Shown: positions 7,508 through 18,532 of the stretch, piece after piece | How positions within the stretch are numbered: position 1 is the stretch's first letter | How the letters are laid out: every line of letters starts with the position of its first letter | Source: an uncultured Oscillospiraceae bacterium | Lineage (GTDB): Bacteria > Bacillota > Clostridia > Oscillospirales > Oscillospiraceae | Length of the DNA stretch: 53,243 nt | NCBI GenBank assembly: GCA_947587025.1 | Contig: CANPXW010000004.1 | Span: 1-53,243, forward strand | Reading direction: 5' to 3' | Notes under the pieces: model-generated | What the model saw: only the letters and a program-made list of their open reading frames with translations | The model's database searches: none | Told to the model about the DNA's origin: nothing | Made by a program: the position numbers and the translations under genes

Positions 7508-7520
7508 AAGAGCATAAAGA

Positions 7521-7556
7521 AAGGGACCTGGAAGCTGGGCTTCCAGGTCCCTTTTT
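7521..7556. terminator. Bidirectional intrinsic terminator after gltD
   Basis: A perfect 14-bp stem (7521-7534 with 7540-7553) around a CTGGG loop, followed by a T run on the plus strand and by Ts on the minus strand. It serves gltD and the convergent gene ending at 7558. Confidence 0.93.
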
Positions 7557-7557
7557 G

Positions 7558-10500
7558 TCATTCCAGAATGTCGTAGGCGGCGTCGAATTCCTCCCGGACC
7601 ACGAAGTTGAAGTCCACGGCGGCGATGCCGCCGCCGGCGTCCCGGTCCACCTGGTAGAACACCACCGCCGCGTCCCTGGGCGCGGTCAGCCGCGTGCCCC
7701 ACTGCCGGGCGGAGAAGTACCGCTCCGGGTCCGCCGGGTCCAGGTGCAGCAGCCCCTTTTCCAGAGCGAAGGCCATCACCTCCGTGAGCGGCTGGCCGTC
7801 CAGCCAGGCGCTGCGGGGCGTCGGGCGCTGCGCATACGTATCTGCCCGCAGACGCTCGTGCTCCTCCAGGAAGAACGCCCGCCTGTTGGGGTAGGGCCAT
7901 CCGCCGGCGTCCAGCTTCACATAGTCGCCGGCCTGGGCCAGCTCTCCCTCGCCGCCGGATGTCTCCCTTGAGGACACCTCATAGCCGCCGTCCGGCCGCT
8001 TTGCCAGCCGCCCCTGGGCGATCAGCGCCGCCTCCAGGGGGTGGTCCTGACCCAGGGGGAAGGCGGTCACGGGCAGGCCGGGCTTTTTTTGCACCCACAT
8101 GCCCTGGCCGCCGCCGGGCTCCGGATAGGGGCCCAGCCACCGGGCCAGCTGCCGGAGCCGCTCGGCCTCCTCCGCGCCCAGGCCGCCGGCCGCCAGCACT
8201 CTGTCTATCCCGGCCCGGACCAGCGTCTTTTCCTGGCGGTCCATGGCGGGCAGATACCGGCAGGGCCGGTCGTACTTCTTCGGGTCCGGACGCCGGGCGT
8301 TGTCCGCCCGGTCCGGGTCGTCCTTTTCGATGTACAGCCGGGCGGCGGTGATCATGTCCAGCATGTCGTGACGTTCCGGGTCCTGATAGGGGCACGGGGC
8401 AGCCTCCACCAGGCAGGGGTGCAGCCGGTAGGGCACGTCCTTCAGTCCGTTTATCTTGGGTACCGCTGGCAGGCCCGGCTGTCCGCCGGCGGCCTGGCGC
8501 ACCTGGCCGTTGGTCCTGGCCCGGAGCACGCCGGCGGCGTTCGGCAGAAAGCGGGTCACCTCGTCGATGGAGACGAAGGGACGGGTGAAGCCGCTGATGC
8601 GCATGAAGGCGCACCAGCGCCGATGCTCCAGCCAGCTGAGCCGGTCCGCGAGCCGGCTGTCCTCCTGGATGCGGCGGTGATAGGTCAGCAGCTCCTCGGC
8701 CGTCAGCGGCCCCTGGGCCGTCTCCGGGAGGACCGGCTCCGCCGTCTGGGCCCGCAGACACCGGGCGCTGAATAGCTTATAGGGCAGATGGAACAGCCGC
8801 GCTGCGGTGGACCAGTCGTCGTAAAGGGGGTCCCGGGGCTCGTTGGCGTCCGCCACGCCGTGCTCCCGCTCGCTGAGCGCCGGGTCCTGCCGGGAGCGCC
8901 TGAGCTGGGTCTCGTCCAGAGAGACGTTGCGCCAGCTGAACTGCTCCCGCAGACCGCCGAAGGGGTGCATCTCCGGGGCGGTGACCACCGTCGGCGGCAG
9001 GGCCACCTCCCGGCTCTTGGCGAACCGGTCCCGGACCACCTCCAGAAGGCTTTCGCTGCGCACGGCGAAGCTGATGACCTGCCGGCCTGCCTGCCTGGCG
9101 GCGGGCCGGCGCAGATGCAGGCCGATCAGGCTGCTGCGGATGCTGTCGGCCAGGGCGATGTTGTCCAGGTCGTCTTCCTCCATCACCAGGAAGTAGTCGC
9201 TGTCCGCCAAAGGCCAGCGCTCCTCCGTGCCGTCGTGGAACTGCCGCCTGTCCCCGGCCAGCAGCGCCCGCAGGTCCGGCTCGTCGTCGGTCTCGATGAA
9301 GGACAGCCGGGCGTAGGGAGGAGCGAACTTATCCTCGCCGGGATAGACGCGCAGGCACTCCGGGCCCTTCCCCCCGGCGGGCAGGACGCAGCTGGCGGCG
9401 ATCTCCGGGCTGAGCCGGTCCAGCCACCGCAGAAACGCCGGCCGTTCCTCGCCGCCGTCTGCGCTCCGGCGGCAGACCACGGTGATGTACAGCTGTACGT
9501 CCAGCATCTGGCCGCACCAGAACACGGTCTTGAACATCTCCCTGGCAAAGGGACCGCCGCCGAACAGCACCACCCGCAGCGGCACGGGCGCGGCGGGGGC
9601 CTCCGAGGCCAGCAGGGGCAGATACAGGGGCCAGCGCTCCATCAGGCTCAGCGCGGCACGCGCGTAGTCCCGGAACACATGCAGCTCCGCCTCCCGGACA
9701 CGGCCGGGCTCTGCCGGACCGTTTGCCGGGCGCTCCCGCTTTTGGCAGAAGCTCTTTTTCAGGGAGCGGACGTTCTCGATGGTCTCCACGCTGTTGGTGA
9801 AAAAATAGATGACGCAGCCGACGTCGCCGTCCCACAGCAGCGGCTGCTCCCCGCCGGGCAGCAGGCCGTGGAGGGTGACCAGGTTCTGCCGGTCGTCGAA
9901 CTGGCCGTCGCCGTCCATGTCGATGAGGAAGAAGCGGCACTTTTTCGACCGGCGGAAGCTGGGACAGTGGAGCATGTCGTCCTGCAGACAGATGGCCCCC
10001 GCCGATCGGGCCCGCAGGAGCAGCTCCGTCTGGGCCTCCTCGGTGCCGTCCGCGCGCGTGTCGGTGAATACGATGGCGTACCGCCGGCGCTCCGGCAGCT
10101 GGGCGATGCTCTCGGCCAGCAGCACGCTGCGCTCGTTCAGCTCCGAGAACACGTACAGCTCCCGCCTCTTGCAGCGGCTCATGGCCAGGCGGGGGGACAC
10201 GCCCGCCAGCACCTGGTATATCACCGCGCCGCCGACGATGGGGGCGGCGGTGTAGATGACGAAGGCGTACACGGTCAGCAGGACCCGCACCGCCTGGGGG
10301 AAGGCGGTCCAGCGGCGGCCGAAGACGCCGCCGTAGTCTGCGTCCAGGCTGAACGCCTGCATCGCGTCGGTCAGCAGCGTCCATGAGAACTGCCGTCTGT
10401 AGGCGGCATAGGCCAGGTCCAGCGCCAGTATGGCGGCGATCAGCGACCCGGTCAGCCACAGCAGCCGATAGGTCAGCCGTCTGCTCCGGCGCAGGCGGAA

Positions 10501-10569
10501 GCACTGTGCCGGGCCGATCACGGCGGCCGCCACAGAGACCAGCAGCAGAAAAACGCTCAGTATCTCCAT
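7558..10569 (-). CDS. Membrane-anchored protein with Rossmann/TrkA-N-like and RyR-like features
   Basis: A 1003-residue protein of no established function. Visible: three hydrophobic segments near residues 2-20, 34-57 and 93-121 anchor the N terminus. A TrkA-N/Rossmann-like strand-helix (ELYVFSELNERSVLLAESI) begins near 137. A second Rossmann-like unit with GGGPFAREM begins near 331. Residues 646-655 read WLEHRRWCAF, followed by a Gly-Phe and an HPCLV element near 717. That order recalls bacterial RyR-type modules, but this assignment is from pattern memory. A large C-terminal region (about 880-1000) is unassigned. There is no ion-channel selectivity filter. The ATG is preceded by AGGGGAG at 9 bases. 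It lies 84 bases downstream of the Clp-FtsH fusion gene on the same strand, so it is probably its membrane partner or sensor. Confidence is high for the CDS and moderate for the domains. Confidence 0.75.
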   Translation of the reverse strand: MEILSVFLLLVSVAAAVIGPAQCFRLRRSRRLTYRLLWLTGSLIAAILALDLAYAAYRRQFSWTLLTDAMQAFSLDADYGGVFGRRWTAFPQAVRVLLTVYAFVIYTAAPIVGGAVIYQVLAGVSPRLAMSRCKRRELYVFSELNERSVLLAESIAQLPERRRYAIVFTDTRADGTEEAQTELLLRARSAGAICLQDDMLHCPSFRRSKKCRFFLIDMDGDGQFDDRQNLVTLHGLLPGGEQPLLWDGDVGCVIYFFTNSVETIENVRSLKKSFCQKRERPANGPAEPGRVREAELHVFRDYARAALSLMERWPLYLPLLASEAPAAPVPLRVVLFGGGPFAREMFKTVFWCGQMLDVQLYITVVCRRSADGGEERPAFLRWLDRLSPEIAASCVLPAGGKGPECLRVYPGEDKFAPPYARLSFIETDDEPDLRALLAGDRRQFHDGTEERWPLADSDYFLVMEEDDLDNIALADSIRSSLIGLHLRRPAARQAGRQVISFAVRSESLLEVVRDRFAKSREVALPPTVVTAPEMHPFGGLREQFSWRNVSLDETQLRRSRQDPALSEREHGVADANEPRDPLYDDWSTAARLFHLPYKLFSARCLRAQTAEPVLPETAQGPLTAEELLTYHRRIQEDSRLADRLSWLEHRRWCAFMRISGFTRPFVSIDEVTRFLPNAAGVLRARTNGQVRQAAGGQPGLPAVPKINGLKDVPYRLHPCLVEAAPCPYQDPERHDMLDMITAARLYIEKDDPDRADNARRPDPKKYDRPCRYLPAMDRQEKTLVRAGIDRVLAAGGLGAEEAERLRQLARWLGPYPEPGGGQGMWVQKKPGLPVTAFPLGQDHPLEAALIAQGRLAKRPDGGYEVSSRETSGGEGELAQAGDYVKLDAGGWPYPNRRAFFLEEHERLRADTYAQRPTPRSAWLDGQPLTEVMAFALEKGLLHLDPADPERYFSARQWGTRLTAPRDAAVVFYQVDRDAGGGIAAVDFNFVVREEFDAAYDILE

Positions 10570-10624: not shown

Positions 10625-10653
10625 CTTGAATGGTCCTTTCTCTCCGGATGGGG

Positions 10654-13600
10654 TCAGCCCCTGACGGCGTCGGCAAAGAAGCGGTCCAGGGTATCCTGGT
10701 CCAGGCACTTCTCCCGCAGCAGCAGCTCCACCAGCCCGTCCATGGCGTCCCGGTTCTTGGCGATGATGTCCCGCGCCCTGACCAGCTGCTCCTGCATGAG
10801 CGCCTCGCCGGCCTGGCTGATCTTGGGCAGGAACAGGTCCTGGCCCATGCCGTAGTCCTTCAGGCAGGTGCGCACAAAGTGGCGGGCCTTTTCCAGGTCG
10901 GAGCTGGCGCCGGTGTTGAGCCCGGCGTCCTCACCAAAGAACTCCAGCTCCGCCGCCCGTCCGGCCAGACACCGGCAGATGACGTCCTTCAGCTCGCTGA
11001 AGGTGAAGGTGGCCTTGTCCTCGGAGGAGGTCTCCATATAGCCGCCGTAGCCGCCCCGGGAGACGATGGTCAAAAACAGGGGCTTGACCCCGCAGACCCA
11101 GCTGACCAGAGCGTGGCCGGCCTCGTGATAGGCCGTCTGGCGCATCTGCTCCTCGCTCCAGGTCTTCTCGTCGCCGAAGCGGTACTGGTCCAGGGCGTCC
11201 AGCAGGCTCTTGCCGGTGGGGGCCTGCTCGCCGATGTCCCTGGCGTACATCTCCACGATCATGCTGATGTCCGCGTTGCTCAGCCCGCCGGAGCGGGCGG
11301 CGATGTTCTGCAGGATGGACTCGTGCTCGCCGCCAAAGCGGATGCCATGGCGCTCGAGAATGCGGCTGAACAGCTCATACCGGGCCTCTTTGTCCGGCAG
11401 AGGCACCAGTATCTTCCTATCGAACCGGCGCACGAAGGCCGGATCCAGCACCCGGCTGCCGGCGCCCTCCACCTCGTAGTTGGTGGCGGCCATGATGAAC
11501 ACGGGGCGCTTTTCATCCACCTGAAAGCCGTCCATCTCCGCCAGCAGGGCGTTAAGGGCGTCTTCGTTGTGCACGGAGCTGACGCCGCCGGTGCGCTGGC
11601 GGGCGATGGCGTCCACCTCGTCGATGAAAATCACCGAGGGAGCGTAGCGCCGGGCCTTTTTGAACAGGTCCCGGATGTTCTGCTCCGTCTGGCCCACCAG
11701 ACTGGCGAAAAAGCTGGTGGCGGTGGTGGGCAGGAAGGTGGCCTTGGCCTCGTTGGCCATGGCCTTGGCCAGCATGGTCTTGCCGGTGCCCGGCGGGCCG
11801 TACAGCAGCACGCCCTTGGGGATGCGCTTGCCGGCCAACAGGCACTTGCGGGGGTCCTCCAGGATGCGGCAGAACTCTCCCAGGGCCTTCTTGGCGCTCT
11901 CGCAGCCCACGATGTCGGCAAAGGTGACGGCGCTGTTCTCCCCCGGCCGGCTGACCAGAGCCATGTCTCCGCCCTGGTAGGCGGTGCGGATATGCAGCCG
12001 GGAGAAGCAGACCTCCATGGTCTGCTCGTCCACCATGTACTGGGCGCAGTTGTAGCTGAGATACTTGCCGGAGCGGGCCAGCTGATAGACGCTGTTGCCG
12101 ATCAGGGCGTTGACCGCCAGCTTTTGCAGCTGTCCGTCCGGGACCTGGCCGTCGGTCAGGGGCAGCACCTGGCGCGCGCCCCGGGACAGCAGAGAGGAGA
12201 AGTCCCGCAGCGCGTACCGGCCCGTGTCCAGTATGTACAGGGGTATCTCCGGGAAGAATTCCGTCAGGTAGTGGAACATCTCCATGCCGTCGGAGCGGAT
12301 GTCCTCCACGTCCGAGGGCAGGCGCTCGCCCGGCTGATAGCCGCAGTAGGGGTCCAGCAGGATGAAGTCCACCACGCCCCGGACCAGCTTTTGCAGCCGG
12401 TCGGCCGAGTCGGTGACGCAGATCTGCATCTCCGGGCCGGACAGGCCCTCCAGCGCCCCGGCGTCGGCGGAGAACACCACCGCCTGGGCGTTGCGCGTCT
12501 GGTGGAACAGGGCCCGTATCTCGTCGGACATGTCCTGCTCGTCCAGGGTCATGTATATCTTTTTCAGCGCGCCGACGGACTGCTCCGGCGCGGCGTCCAG
12601 GTGCAGCGCCACGTCCTCGATCTCCCGGATGACGGCGCCGCGTGCCAGGCCCCGGAGGGTCCGGGCGTCCGCCGCCCCGCCGCCGGCGTACAGGATCAGC
12701 GCCGGTATCCGGGCGGCGTCATATTCCACGGCGATGCCGGTGGAGGCGGTGAACAACCCCAGCTGGCGGTCGATCTCGTCCCGCACGATCTCCATCAGGG
12801 CGTAGGGCTCCAGATGGTTGAACATGATGATGTGGCCGTTGGCCATGCGGGTGGTGATGCTGGCGGGGAACATGGGCTCACCGCCGAAGGAGCCGGGCCG
12901 GGCCTCCGTTTTCAGCGCGTCGATGAGGGCGCTGCGGGGGATGTTGGACAGATTGCGGTCCTCGGTGCTGTCGTACAGGGACGCGCCGGCGTTGGTGGTC
13001 ATGATGACGATCACGTCCCGGCAGGAGACCTCCGTCTGGGGGGCCAGGCGCTGGGGGTTGGGCGGGGTCATCAGCCGGCCGAAGTCCAGTATCTGCAGGA
13101 AGATGTGGATGACGTTCAGGTGGGCCTTCTCGATCTCGTCGAAGATGAGGATGGCATTGGGATGCTGGGTGACGAAATCCGTCACCGCCGCGCTCATGCT
13201 CAGGTTGCCCAGGTTATCGGAAAACTCGCTCATGTCCAGGGTCAGCACCGGCCGGCCGGACAGCTCGGCGAACTGGGTGGCCAGGTACGTCTTGCCCACG
13301 CCGGAGGGGCCCATGAACAGGAACGTGGCCAGCGGGCCCCTGCGGTCCGCGTCGTCCCTGGCGAACAGCTCGCTCTCGAACACGCCGCTGACCAGCTCCG
13401 TGACCGCGTGGTGCTGGCCCCGGACCTTGCCCAGCAGCTGGTCGGTGACGGCGCGCAGCTGACCGGTGAGCGCGCCCAGACGCTCCTCCGCCGGCGGCTG
13501 CTCCTCCGCCGGAGCCTGGGGGGCGGGCGTCCGCTCCGTGGGCGCGGCTGTCTGCTCCGCTGCCGGCTGCACCGGGGCGGGCTTTTCCGCCGGGGCGGCG

Positions 13601-13965
13601 TTCGCCGCCGACAGGTCGATGCTCTGGCGGAAGGCGGGCCGGTCGGCCAGCACGTGGACGACGTCGGGCTTGAGGTTTTTCACATCCTCCGGGGAGAGGT
13701 CCTTCACGGTGACCACGAAGCGGCTGCCGGAGGGATGCCCGTCCTCGGACTGGCCGCCGCTGGCGAGACCGGCGAGGATGTCCCGGACCCGGTCCGGCAG
13801 CTGCTCGCCGCCGCCGTCGGGCAGATACAGCCGGCACTGGAAGTTGCCCAGCTTTTCCGCGAACACGTCAGACGCGCCCAGCTGCGCCTTTACAGCGTCG
13901 GCCAGCGCGTCCCAGCTGACGCGGACGTTGAAGTCCTTGAGGATGACGGAGATCTGTAAGATCAT
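10654..13965 (-). CDS. Double AAA+ Clp-FtsH fusion zinc protease
   Basis: A 1103-residue protein likely to unfold and degrade substrates. Domains in order: unassigned N-terminal region 1-120; Pro/Ala/Glu-rich linker 121-162; Clp-type AAA+ with Walker A GPSGVGKT at 219-226, Walker B ILIFDE at 272-277 and a TTN sensor near 323; receiver-like segment about 495-610 with Asp538 in FILLDP; FtsH-like AAA+ with Walker A GPPGTGKT at 723-730, Walker B VIFIDE at 778-783 and RRFDR at 846-850; M41 peptidase with HEAGH at 947-951 and the expected third zinc ligand Asp1023. Odd points: no transmembrane segment, unlike normal FtsH; the pore-loop phenylalanine of FtsH appears to be leucine (LVG, 756-758); and the arginine-finger region is two residues shorter than usual. 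It is the first gene of a two-gene operon with a membrane protein. All catalytic residues are present, so it is probably active. Confidence 0.88.
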   Translation of the reverse strand: MILQISVILKDFNVRVSWDALADAVKAQLGASDVFAEKLGNFQCRLYLPDGGGEQLPDRVRDILAGLASGGQSEDGHPSGSRFVVTVKDLSPEDVKNLKPDVVHVLADRPAFRQSIDLSAANAAPAEKPAPVQPAAEQTAAPTERTPAPQAPAEEQPPAEERLGALTGQLRAVTDQLLGKVRGQHHAVTELVSGVFESELFARDDADRRGPLATFLFMGPSGVGKTYLATQFAELSGRPVLTLDMSEFSDNLGNLSMSAAVTDFVTQHPNAILIFDEIEKAHLNVIHIFLQILDFGRLMTPPNPQRLAPQTEVSCRDVIVIMTTNAGASLYDSTEDRNLSNIPRSALIDALKTEARPGSFGGEPMFPASITTRMANGHIIMFNHLEPYALMEIVRDEIDRQLGLFTASTGIAVEYDAARIPALILYAGGGAADARTLRGLARGAVIREIEDVALHLDAAPEQSVGALKKIYMTLDEQDMSDEIRALFHQTRNAQAVVFSADAGALEGLSGPEMQICVTDSADRLQKLVRGVVDFILLDPYCGYQPGERLPSDVEDIRSDGMEMFHYLTEFFPEIPLYILDTGRYALRDFSSLLSRGARQVLPLTDGQVPDGQLQKLAVNALIGNSVYQLARSGKYLSYNCAQYMVDEQTMEVCFSRLHIRTAYQGGDMALVSRPGENSAVTFADIVGCESAKKALGEFCRILEDPRKCLLAGKRIPKGVLLYGPPGTGKTMLAKAMANEAKATFLPTTATSFFASLVGQTEQNIRDLFKKARRYAPSVIFIDEVDAIARQRTGGVSSVHNEDALNALLAEMDGFQVDEKRPVFIMAATNYEVEGAGSRVLDPAFVRRFDRKILVPLPDKEARYELFSRILERHGIRFGGEHESILQNIAARSGGLSNADISMIVEMYARDIGEQAPTGKSLLDALDQYRFGDEKTWSEEQMRQTAYHEAGHALVSWVCGVKPLFLTIVSRGGYGGYMETSSEDKATFTFSELKDVICRCLAGRAAELEFFGEDAGLNTGASSDLEKARHFVRTCLKDYGMGQDLFLPKISQAGEALMQEQLVRARDIIAKNRDAMDGLVELLLREKCLDQDTLDRFFADAVRG

Positions 13966-14003
13966 GTCTTTCTGTGTCCTTTCAAATAATGGGGACGGAG
14001 GTC

Positions 14004-14099
14004 AAGGCCTGACCCCAGGAGCGCATCCCGAGATCAGGCCTTGTCATCGCAGCTAGCTTGCATCGGCTCATCGTTCCCGTCCCGGCCAAAGGCGGCCGG
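14004..14099 (-). other. Structured 5' leader of the Clp-FtsH operon
   Basis: Between the promoter and the start codon are a CCGGCC/GGCCGG hairpin (14082-14099) and a 9-bp inverted repeat (14004-14012 with 14034-14042) that can close a 21-base loop. No U tract follows, so it is not a terminator. I could not match it to a known riboswitch class. Confidence 0.45.
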
Positions 14100-14113: not shown

Positions 14114-14143
14114 ATTATATAACAGTTTTTCCGCATCTGTCAA
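14114..14143 (-). promoter_or_regulatory. Promoter of the Clp-FtsH operon (TTGACA-18-TATAAT)
   Basis: Both hexamers are perfect on the minus strand: TTGACA at 14143-14138 and TATAAT at 14119-14114, with an 18-base spacer. The predicted leader is about 140 bases and contains two clear hairpins. Confidence 0.85.
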
Positions 14144-14181: not shown

Positions 14182-16155
14182 TCAGTTGATCTTCAGCGTC
14201 TCCCAGAGGGAGTTGATGTAGTCCAGCAGATCCCCGTCCAGGTTCCGGTAGGCGTAGGCGTTGTACTTCTCGGCAAAGTCGCCCCAGTCGGGGTAAAGGA
14301 TGGCCATGGCCTCCTCGCCCATCTCGTCGATGTAGTCCGGGTCATTGTACACCAGGGTGTTGGGGGAGGCGTACCAGGTGTATTCGGCGTTGGCGATGGC
14401 CGGCTCCCGGGAGAGCATGTAGTTGATGAATATCTCCGCCACCTCCTTATTCTGGCAGCAGGTGGGGATGCACATGGCGTCGATGTAGAAGTTGGTCTCG
14501 TCGGGGTAGTAGAACCGCAGGTCCACGGTGTCGGCCTGGGCGTCGGCCATGGTGAAGTAGTCCCCGGCGTAGTAGGCGGCCACGGCGCCCTCGCCGGACT
14601 CCATCATGTTGTACACCTCGTCCATGACGTAGCTCTTCACCAGCGGGCGCTGGGCCAGCAGGTCCTCCAGCGCCGCGTCCCAGACAGAGCGGTCGGTGGT
14701 GTTCACGTCCGCTCCGGCCCGGTATAGGGCCGTGCCGAAGGCGTCACGGGAGTTATTGAACTGCAAAATGCGCCCGGCATACTTCTCGTTCCACATCAGC
14801 TCCCAGCCGTCCGCGTCGGCCTCGTCCACCTCGTTGGCGTTGTATATGACCCCCACGATGCCGTAGGCGTAGGGCACGGAGTAGGCGTCCTCCGGGTCGT
14901 AATAGAGCCCGTGGAAGTCGTCAGCGATGTACTGGTAGTTGGGGATGTTGTCGAAGTCCAGGGGCAGGAGCATATCCTCCTCGATCATGCGGGCGATCAT
15001 GTAGTCGGAGGGTATCACCACGTCGTAGCTGACCGCGCCGGAGGAGAGCTTGGCGTACATGTCCTCGTTGGAGGCGAAGGTGGTGTAGTTGACCTGAACC
15101 GGCCGGCCGTACTCCTGCTCGTACCAGGCGGCGAATTCTTTCACCACGTCCATGGAGCCCTCGGAGCCGTCGGAGATATACTCGCCCCAGTTGTAGACGT
15201 TGAGCACCTGGGGCTTATTGTCCGTCTCTGTGACGGCGAACACCGCCGCCGCGATCACCGCCGCCAGGGCCAGACCGCCCCCGCAGCCGTAGAGGATGCG
15301 GCGCTTTTTCGGGTCCATGGGGGGCCTGCCGGATGCGGCCCGCTTGGCCTTCCGGGCGGCCCGGAGACGCTGGCTGTCCTCGCTGTCGGTGAGGTTGGAG
15401 AGCAGCAGCAGCGCCAGGATGACGAAGAAAATGAGGGTCGCCAGGGCGTACATGTCCGGGGTGACCGTCTTTTTCGTCATGTTGTAGATGCGGATGGGCA
15501 GGGTCTGGAACCCGGTGCCCGTGGTGAAGTAGCTGATCACGAAGTCGTCCAGGGAGAGGGTGAAGGCCATGATCATGCCGGTGACGATGGCGGGCATGAT
15601 CTCCGGCAGCTCCACCTTCCAGAACGCCCCCCAGGGGGTGCAGCCCAGGTCCATGGCCGCCTCCGGCAGGGACTTATCCATCTGCCGCAGCTTGGGCAGC
15701 ACCTGCAGTATCACGTAGGGCAGGCAGAAGGTGATGTGGGCGATGAGCAGGGTGATGAAGCTCAGGCTGTTGGCAAGGCCGAACAGGCGGCTTGCGAACA
15801 CGAACATCAGCATCATGGAGATGCCGGTGATGATGTCCGGGTTTATCATGGGGATGTTGGTGACCATGTCCATGGCCGAGCGCAGGTACTTCGAGCGCAT
15901 GCGGTGGATGCCCACGGCGGCGGCGGTGCCCATGACGGTGGACACGCCGGAGGCGCACACCGCCAGGATGAGAGTGTTGCGCACGGTCTTGAGGGTCTCC
16001 GTGTCCCGGAAAAGCTCCCGGTACCACTTCAGGGAGAAGCCGGAGAACACGGAGAGGCTCCTGGCCTCGTTGAAGGAGAACAGCAGCAATATGGCGATGG
16101 GCGCGAACAGGAACGCGAACATCAGCCCGGTGAATATCTTGGAAGCTCTTTTCAT
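14182..16155 (-). CDS. potC-potD: Fused PotC permease and PotD polyamine-binding protein
   Basis: A single 657-residue protein combining the second permease and the extracellular binding protein of a spermidine/putrescine ABC importer. Residues 1-265 are a PotC-type permease with six membrane segments and the EAA loop (EAAMDLGCTPWGAF). A basic linker of about 30 residues follows. A transmembrane helix near 290-312 then carries the substrate-binding domain (LNVYNWGEYISDG onward) to the C terminus, so the binding domain is tethered outside. The fusion keeps both parts full length, with no frameshift. The start overlaps the potB stop as ATGA. It is the last gene of potA-potB-potCD. Exact polyamine preference cannot be read from sequence. 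Confidence 0.94.
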   Translation of the reverse strand: MKRASKIFTGLMFAFLFAPIAILLLFSFNEARSLSVFSGFSLKWYRELFRDTETLKTVRNTLILAVCASGVSTVMGTAAAVGIHRMRSKYLRSAMDMVTNIPMINPDIITGISMMLMFVFASRLFGLANSLSFITLLIAHITFCLPYVILQVLPKLRQMDKSLPEAAMDLGCTPWGAFWKVELPEIMPAIVTGMIMAFTLSLDDFVISYFTTGTGFQTLPIRIYNMTKKTVTPDMYALATLIFFVILALLLLSNLTDSEDSQRLRAARKAKRAASGRPPMDPKKRRILYGCGGGLALAAVIAAAVFAVTETDNKPQVLNVYNWGEYISDGSEGSMDVVKEFAAWYEQEYGRPVQVNYTTFASNEDMYAKLSSGAVSYDVVIPSDYMIARMIEEDMLLPLDFDNIPNYQYIADDFHGLYYDPEDAYSVPYAYGIVGVIYNANEVDEADADGWELMWNEKYAGRILQFNNSRDAFGTALYRAGADVNTTDRSVWDAALEDLLAQRPLVKSYVMDEVYNMMESGEGAVAAYYAGDYFTMADAQADTVDLRFYYPDETNFYIDAMCIPTCCQNKEVAEIFINYMLSREPAIANAEYTWYASPNTLVYNDPDYIDEMGEEAMAILYPDWGDFAEKYNAYAYRNLDGDLLDYINSLWETLKIN

Positions 16156-18154: not shown

Positions 18155-18532
18155 GGGCGCCCTCCTGAAAATAAAAAACAAGTGGAACATGCCGGGCACG
18201 TTCCACTTGCGATGCTGTTACGGTCTGCCGCCAAAGACGGCGTTCCGTCCCAATGGATTTGAGAGTTTTCTGAAAGCAAAGATGCCTTTACCTACTCTTA
18301 CTGACCATTTTACAAGTTTTCGTGCCGCCCGGCACCGGTTATAAAGTAACCAACTTATAAAACTTGAGCCCTGGGCCATGGCGGCCCAACTCAATCAATA
18401 AGGCAGCTCGCGCTGCCAGCCGCTCACGCGGCGATCGGCATTCGACCCGGCTGTCCGTGTGGCCTTGGCCGTCCCGTGGGACGGCGGTCGCATCCTGCTT
18501 TGGAAAGGCTCTTTCCAATTGAGACGGGCTAC
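18155..18532 (-). other. Hairpin-rich leader of the pot operon
   Basis: About 370 noncoding bases. On the minus strand I see in order: an 8-bp hairpin around 18500-18522; an almost perfect GCCGTCCC palindrome at about 18468-18485; a GCTGGCAG/CTGCC hairpin near 18400-18420; a TTGAG..CTCAA compound stem near 18362-18395; and a three-way-junction-like unit closed by CAAGTTTT/AAAACTTG (about 18313-18367). The last arm, AACTTG, could alternatively pair with the CAAGT of the terminator. No named riboswitch or T-box was recognised. Confidence 0.5.
18173..18209 (-). terminator. Attenuator-like terminator directly before potA
   Basis: A perfect 10-bp stem (18179-18188 with 18200-18209) around an 11-base loop is followed on the minus strand by TTTTTTATTTT and then the potA ribosome site. 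Since the only good promoter lies upstream of it, it should stop transcripts unless overridden. Confidence 0.85.

Follow-up and report, generated by a model that had tools for sequence, protein, structure and literature searches.

The AAA+ motors of the FtsH and Clp kinds act as hexamers that thread their substrate, and the M41 peptidase cleaves it. To our knowledge, each bacterial AAA+ protease machine uses motors of a single clade. The protease described here is encoded at 10654-13965 on the minus strand of a 53,243-nucleotide stretch of DNA from an uncultured Oscillospiraceae bacterium (contig CANPXW010000004.1; the whole stretch is hereafter referred to as the window), and it is a soluble fusion, in one chain of 1103 amino acids, of a Clp-type AAA+ module, a receiver-like domain and an FtsH-type AAA+/M41 module. 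It shares with FtsH (M41, TIGR01241) the FtsH-type AAA domain, the HExxH motif with a third Asp, and the contiguous order of AAA and M41. However, it has no membrane helix, carries a Clp-type motor and a receiver-like domain in front, and reaches 308.8 bits against the FtsH_fam profile (NCBIfam, residues 676-1085), under the equivalog cut-off of 600 bits. Similarly, it is comparable to the D2 part of the Clp/Hsp100 proteins ClpA and ClpB by its AAA_2 module, in which the Walker residues are conserved in at least 19 of the 20 aligned proteins and the sensor and finger columns in 19 of 20. In contrast to these proteins, it has one Clp module, has its own peptidase fused, and lacks GYVG, the usual Clp pore loop motif.

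Predicted conflict loci of the FtsH-containing MoxR-vWA ternary systems also encode a tandem AAA protein that includes an AAA domain of the FtsH type. According to PMC7159879, both AAA domains are of the FtsH type in those systems, the first being inactive, and the MoxR-vWA genes define the system, whereas in the protease described here the first AAA belongs to the Clp type and its motifs are intact. At the locus of one relative (L212), the Macro gene has a weak vWA match behind it; no search was aimed at MoxR. Thoeris (PMC11204291) and the nuclease-protease pairs (PMC12799240) are reminiscent of the TIR or Macro genes, or the nuclease, found beside some relatives, but TIR genes lie within three genes of the protease in 3 of 22 loci only, and none was found among the open reading frames (ORFs) scanned in the window. 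YbjN-type TY-chaperones have been predicted in ADP-ribose-centred immune neighbourhoods (PMC9503650), and a YbjN-type small gene is present at nine of the 22 protease loci, the label being weak in three of them; the main text of that article does not contain the words RyR, FtsH, TrkA, AAA+ or Clp. Phage proteins with a ryanodine receptor (RyR) domain degrade or sequester 2'/3'cADPR, which are cyclic ADP-ribose immune signals, and RyDEP contacts its ligand through His, Trp and His, according to a 2026 preprint (PMC13232231). Among the top-ranked literature, with subscription papers mostly out of reach, we found no published description of the protease architecture.

Two different AAA+ modules and an M41 site in one soluble chain

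The codon-position GC (guanine plus cytosine) content of the protease frame is 0.66/0.43/0.93, and therefore the minus strand is the coding strand; a 1109-amino-acid open frame on the opposite strand (10630-13959, plus) was rejected as coding on its third-position GC and is a high-GC shadow. From its ATG start, the protein begins with an N-terminal domain of no recognised family (residues 1-168; 13462-13965, this and all the following coordinates of the gene being on the minus strand). The first AAA+ module (residues 169-470; 12556-13461) contains a Walker A motif at residues 219-226 (13288-13311) and matches Pfam AAA_2 at residues 211-335 (E 3.1e-27, 96.1 bits for a cut-off of 27). In NCBIfam, approximately residues 170-455 match the D2 part of ClpA/ClpB/ClpV with 107/84/93 bits, missing the equivalog cut-offs of 993/1232/885 bits. 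After the receiver-like domain (residues 484-640; 12046-12516), the FtsH-type AAA domain (residues 719-856; 11398-11811; Pfam AAA, E 9.5e-49) bears its own Walker A motif at residues 723-730 (11776-11799), followed by a Peptidase_M41 match (residues 936-1046; 10828-11160; E 6e-25), both Pfam matches being over the cut-off. The M41 region holds the HEAGH zinc site (residues 947-951; 11113-11127) and Asp1023 (10897-10899) in the column of the third zinc ligand. The highest hydropathy over 19 residues is 1.47, showing no membrane helix, and no segment above 1.6 was observed across the 20 aligned proteins, so that the N-terminal membrane anchor of FtsH is absent. Overall, the analysis upholds the original prediction, made from the letters alone, of one frame without a membrane helix that carries two different AAA+ ATPases, a receiver-like domain between them and an M41 zinc site, and the Walker A, HEAGH, Asp1023 and Asp538 positions are those that it had given. 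Elsewhere, the same genome contains two further FtsH-like loci and two that are Clp-like, as well as a single weak match to AAA.

The conservation of these motifs was assessed in an alignment of 20 proteins from 19 genomes, leaving out L091, L127 and L128. The HExxH motif, Asp1023 and Asp538 are present in 20/20 proteins, as is the Walker A Lys in both motors. The Walker B motif is conserved in 19/20 in both motors, the exception being L129, a distant relative whose second AAA looks degenerate. The sensor Asn, finger and sensor-2 Arg columns of the first AAA are likewise conserved in 19/20. From these intact motifs we infer that both motors probably work and that the protease probably has a substrate path of its own. 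The original prediction had read the FtsH pore Phe as replaced by Leu; Leu756 (11698-11700) is indeed found in the window protein, but this position is Leu in only 4/20 proteins including that of the window, aromatic in 13/20 and another residue or a gap in 3/20, so the replacement is a subclade trait and not a family-wide one. In the Clp-type ring, the alignment shows no GYVG, and relatives with a longer loop display a Lys-x-Tyr segment at that place. Concerning the N-domain, no fold or resemblance was found for the subclade of the window. In the other large subfamily, Clp_N was matched in Pfam by 0/10 proteins, and a short and weak PDB match to the ClpA N-domain was obtained (E 0.0075).

The receiver-like domain is more difficult to interpret. 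In the window protein it shows no Pfam match at E 1, and Response_reg was matched in 6 of the 17 relatives scanned (best E 6.6e-5). The profile of the family, built from an alignment of 17 rows (L122, L124 and L126 left out), retrieved mostly receivers from the PDB, all weakly: the top match is a de novo design (E 1.3e-4), the next is NtrC1 (E 0.0012), and the single-domain E-values are 0.01-0.2. When the profile was compared with one real receiver, the probability was 0.6% and the Asp region alone was aligned. In the PDB profile alignments, Asp538 (12352-12354) falls in the column of the receiver phospho-Asp, and the original prediction had proposed a phosphorylation switch at this residue. 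Asp538 itself is invariant, yet the beta-1 acid pair of working receivers is not conserved, as judged by eye, nor is their beta-5 Lys, the column of which is unmatched in the profile alignments. Phosphorylation of Asp538 is therefore not supported, and a canonical phosphorelay appears unlikely; Asp555 and Tyr577 are just as invariant (17/17 rows). As likely is that the domain has a ligand-binding or structural role.

Distribution and evolution of the protease family

Relatives of the protease were found in 24 genomes, in 19 of which the frame is whole. In the other five it is interrupted (G095, with a frame break near residue 363, and G302, with one stop in the N-domain) or cut by the end of the contig (G552, G1194 and G1466; M41 is incomplete to view in the last two). 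The carriers come from the samples at the genus, family, order, class and phylum levels (21 genomes), from another family (two genomes) and from the metagenome-assembled genome (MAG) of Acetatifactor sp. MB2.86 (L010). They amount to 4/35 genomes in the genus, 4/300 in the family, 13/394 in the order, 3/391 in the class and 3/398 in the phylum, with 4/207 in the family of G585, and these counts include the genome of the window where it was sampled. The presence of the protease is, then, rare and patchy across taxa. Two AAA proteins that fell in the core cluster (L010 297-2522 and L119 2323-4929) are not carriers and were not counted. Since relatives of similar length with the same domain order occur in independent assemblies, an artificial join of two genes during assembly is excluded, and an assembly chimera was rejected.

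The pairwise ratio of nonsynonymous to synonymous substitution rates (dN/dS) is 0.033-0.103 in four comparisons, which include the compared parts of interrupted copies, and the protease is under purifying selection. In a quick tree, the 20 proteins fall into a clade of six with the window protein, a second and larger clade, and a pair that stands apart. The members from the GTDB family f1 are split over two of these clades and the genome G330 carries members of two clades; because of this, a horizontal spread of the protease would fit. A phage or plasmid gene was rejected: tblastn returned no plasmid or phage record in which one place covers 80% of the query, and in viral contigs, among the matches listed (at least 26 loci), the protease gave partial AAA or FtsH matches only.

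The TrkA_N/RyR-like partner and the genomic context

Downstream of the protease, after a gap of 84 bp, a gene located at 7558-10569 (minus strand) encodes a partner of 1003 amino acids with three hydrophobic segments, a middle part that is TrkA_N-like by its relatives and a RyR-like C-terminal part. The original prediction had nothing on such partner genes. A sigma-70 promoter-like site (12/12, spacer 18; 14114-14143, minus strand) lies upstream of the protease, where shuffles of the 7.1 kb scanned contain on average 0.3 such sites, and a terminator-like stem of 16 pairs follows the partner gene (7520-7554, minus strand). There is no same-strand terminator-like site in the gap, and two weaker ones are located inside the two genes. 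The protease and its partner thus appear to form an operon. In the partner family, TrkA_N is matched in 3/7 members (best E 1.1e-5) and RyR (PF02026) in 1/7 (E 0.089), the window's own protein not being among the TrkA_N matches. The C-terminal signature EHxRW ... LHPCLV (residues 648-721; 8407-8628, minus strand) has its E, H, R and W and its second H invariant in 7/7 members, and we consider the RyR identity of the window partner a good lead. No match to the partner gene was found in viral contigs.

The presence of the partner, defined by a long profile match, follows that of the protease: it is found in 16 of the 21 carriers versus 2 of the 59 non-carriers, and in a further 20 genomes in one of three carriers versus none of 17 non-carriers (the latter drawn from a listed 20), giving totals of 17/24 and 2/76, respectively. 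Weak partial matches in the non-carriers G020, G294 and G010 (E 1e-10 to 1e-18) were set apart. Among the carriers that are at least 90% complete, 11/15 have the partner. It is encoded beside the protease in seven of the 17 partner-bearing carriers, elsewhere on the same contig in two and on another contig in eight; in G1466, the partner stands immediately before the protease. The carriers without it are G095 (interrupted protease), G571, G1021, G1194, G1401, G1603 (kinase-fused protease) and the Acetatifactor MAG.

The neighbourhoods of the relatives contain further recurrent gene classes. Within three genes of the protease in 22 loci, we found YbjN-type genes in nine, TrkA_N/RyR-like genes in five, and single RyR, Card1-like CARF nuclease and TIR genes in three each, these labels resting on scans of some members per cluster. 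At least one of these classes occurs in 16/22 loci, always on the strand of the protease save for one TIR gene; four loci have none (L118, L122, L128 and L129) and two have a small gene of an unknown family alone (L124 and L126). The 22 loci include L091 (interrupted), L122 (cut by the contig end), L107 and L123, which lie on short contigs, and the short, unwidened L128 and L129, and leave out L127, L212 and L213. The interrupted protease of L127 adds a Card1-like gene and a TrkA_N/RyR-like gene to these observations. At locus L092, the RyR protein, the one scanned out of three single RyR proteins, matches PF02026 with E 7e-37, the TIR protein matches TIR_2 with E 1e-18 and the Card1-like protein, the one scanned out of four, matches the CARF-PDDEXK profile of PADLOC with E 3e-34. 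The four Card1-like proteins share 33-37% identity and conserved D and K positions, and the YbjN label is over the Pfam cut-off in all four proteins scanned out of the six in its first cluster. The TIR and RyR profiles made from these loci have no match in 79 control loci from other taxa (1.24 Mb). Among the surroundings of 13 partner genes that are not near the protease or belong to non-carriers, a single RyR gene is present in three and a TIR gene in two. In G1603 (L212 1420-7467), a frame of 2015 amino acids has an N-terminal protein kinase ahead of the whole protease, with a Macro gene after it and a KAP NTPase gene before it. A type III CRISPR effector was also considered and rejected, as no Cas10 over the TIGR02578 cut-off was found in the 21 carriers, several of which are incomplete genomes; weak partial matches below the cut-off occur in 8/21.

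Other genes recur around the proteases or the partner genes. A Tubulin_2-like protein (L195 11576-15172) and a weak Tubulin_2 match ahead of a TIR domain (L092 8424-9494; 24.6 of 27 bits) are encoded near TrkA_N/RyR-like genes, as are large transglutaminase-like proteins or their blastp relatives (L092 16425-19898, L203 11357-16828, L200 and L194). The small proteins of an unknown family in L124 (8202-8495) and L126 (8482-8811) are encoded directly before proteases of a short subfamily. A gene that looks sigma-factor-like by eye is found near the protease or the partner in L117 (6325-7230), L123 (495-1409), L125 (339-1139) and L203 (10129-11166), and in three of these loci a small gene stands next to it; the two of its proteins that were scanned have no Pfam match. 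In the window itself, the protease leader contains a long near-perfect hairpin (14003-14043, minus strand), single copy in the window, and folds better than 200/200 shuffles (z -3.2). Farther upstream, a single frame (14182-16155, minus strand) combines the permease domain and the substrate-binding domain of an ATP-binding cassette transporter of the polyamine type, and a match to the SpF59/ldcC small RNA (RF02440, 66.3 bits; 18435-18490, minus strand) lies upstream of a polyamine-transporter-like ATPase gene. This RNA and one tRNA are all that Rfam retrieved over the window.

Proposed function and alternatives

The genes for likely sensors of ADP-ribose-type signals, found beside the relatives or in the same genomes, suggest that the protease may be controlled by a signal. 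In the reading that we put forward, it would be a two-motor AAA+ zinc protease belonging to an ADP-ribose or nucleotide-signal system that acts as a mobile stress or immune module, and we regard the arguments for and against this as evenly balanced; its role in defence is likewise a hypothesis with about even odds. The chain would assemble into a hexamer in which two rings are stacked. Of these, the first, through its variable N-domain or, in relatives, with the YbjN-type chaperone, would pick and pre-unfold the substrate, which the FtsH ring would then feed into the zinc chamber, while the receiver-like domain would be a non-canonical regulatory joint between the rings. The RyR-like membrane partner could sense a signal derived from nicotinamide adenine dinucleotide (NAD), of the ADP-ribose type, or an oligonucleotide signal, and the protease would degrade selected proteins, either as the effector itself or in order to release an effector. 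The more specific proposal of a new class of AAA+ proteases, with motors from two AAA+ clades and a zinc chamber in one soluble chain, a receiver-derived joint and an ADP-ribose-sensing membrane partner of the RyR type, in which an NAD-derived immune signal turns on proteolysis, is a tentative and somewhat doubtful one.

Several observations weigh against the signal-controlled immune module and must be kept in mind. Regarding the partner, the window protein matches neither RyR nor TrkA_N in Pfam, nor any other family there. The comparison of its signature with three single RyR proteins was weak (hhalign E 6.8e-4, probability 26.8%), and so was the best PDB match of the partner-family profile, a ryanodine receptor (E 0.14). 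The structure models are unusable, with a predicted local distance difference test (pLDDT) of 34.7 for the full protease (two-row alignment) and 37.1 for the RyR-like fragment (single sequence). The co-occurrence with the protease has a Fisher p of ~1e-10 for the first 80 genomes, which is not a true probability because the genomes are related. In addition, the non-carriers were hand-picked, the partner profile was built solely from protease loci, and only one of the three further carriers has the partner. Regarding the neighbours, Pfam scans of 16 ORFs of the window revealed neither a TIR nor a CARF domain, and the 80%-complete genome of the window yielded no Card1-like gene. The Card1-like match to Pfam Card1 is under the cut-off (24.0 versus 26.4 bits), and its enrichment is mild (8/21 carriers versus 8/59 non-carriers, p 0.025). 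The second YbjN cluster (L114, L119 and L125) is weak, as one of the two proteins scanned is under the cut-off and the other has no match. The labels of the neighbour classes are scattered on the protease tree instead of clustered. Finally, of the four genus copies, those of G095 and G302 are interrupted in their draft assemblies.

These interruptions, together with the degenerate second AAA of the distant L129, could be taken to mean that the protease is a degenerating accessory gene without current function in the genus. The zinc-site residues present in 20/20 proteins and the low dN/dS, which was obtained including the compared parts of the interrupted copies, argue otherwise, and the interruptions themselves may be draft-assembly errors, so that we find this explanation highly improbable. 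The YbjN-type genes could alternatively suit a housekeeping or stress quality-control protease, in which damaged soluble proteins are handled by the two motors in series, the signalling neighbours being incidental. The neighbouring ClpK and FtsH genes that plasmids carry, according to their annotation, and the recurrent sigma-factor-like gene of some loci point in the same direction. Nevertheless, the genome of the window is already provided with other FtsH-like and Clp-like loci, two of each, the protease is rare and patchy, it strongly co-occurs with the TrkA_N/RyR-like gene, and its relatives have RyR, TIR and CARF neighbours, all of which make such a role somewhat unlikely.

The association between the two genes can also be read without immunity. 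The partner could be a metabolite-responsive ion channel or transport regulator, the protease controlling its turnover or being controlled by it, in agreement with the three hydrophobic segments, the TrkA_N matches of some members, the shared apparent operon and the co-occurrence. However, this would leave the TIR and Card1-like nuclease neighbours and the patchy spread of the protease unexplained, and we judge it unlikely.

What is new here is a variant of AAA+ protease with Clp-type and FtsH-type motors, and the signalling company that it keeps is the stronger surprise. Its intact and conserved two-motor chain lets the sharing of one substrate and one chamber be tested. Returning to the signal-controlled immune module, the tie with a RyR-like protein, plus the TIR, CARF nuclease and Macro genes of the relatives, suggests that energy-driven proteolysis may be wired to nucleotide signals. 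If the more specific proposal of a new protease class is true, a ryanodine-receptor ligand domain would be linked to regulated proteolysis in bacterial immunity.

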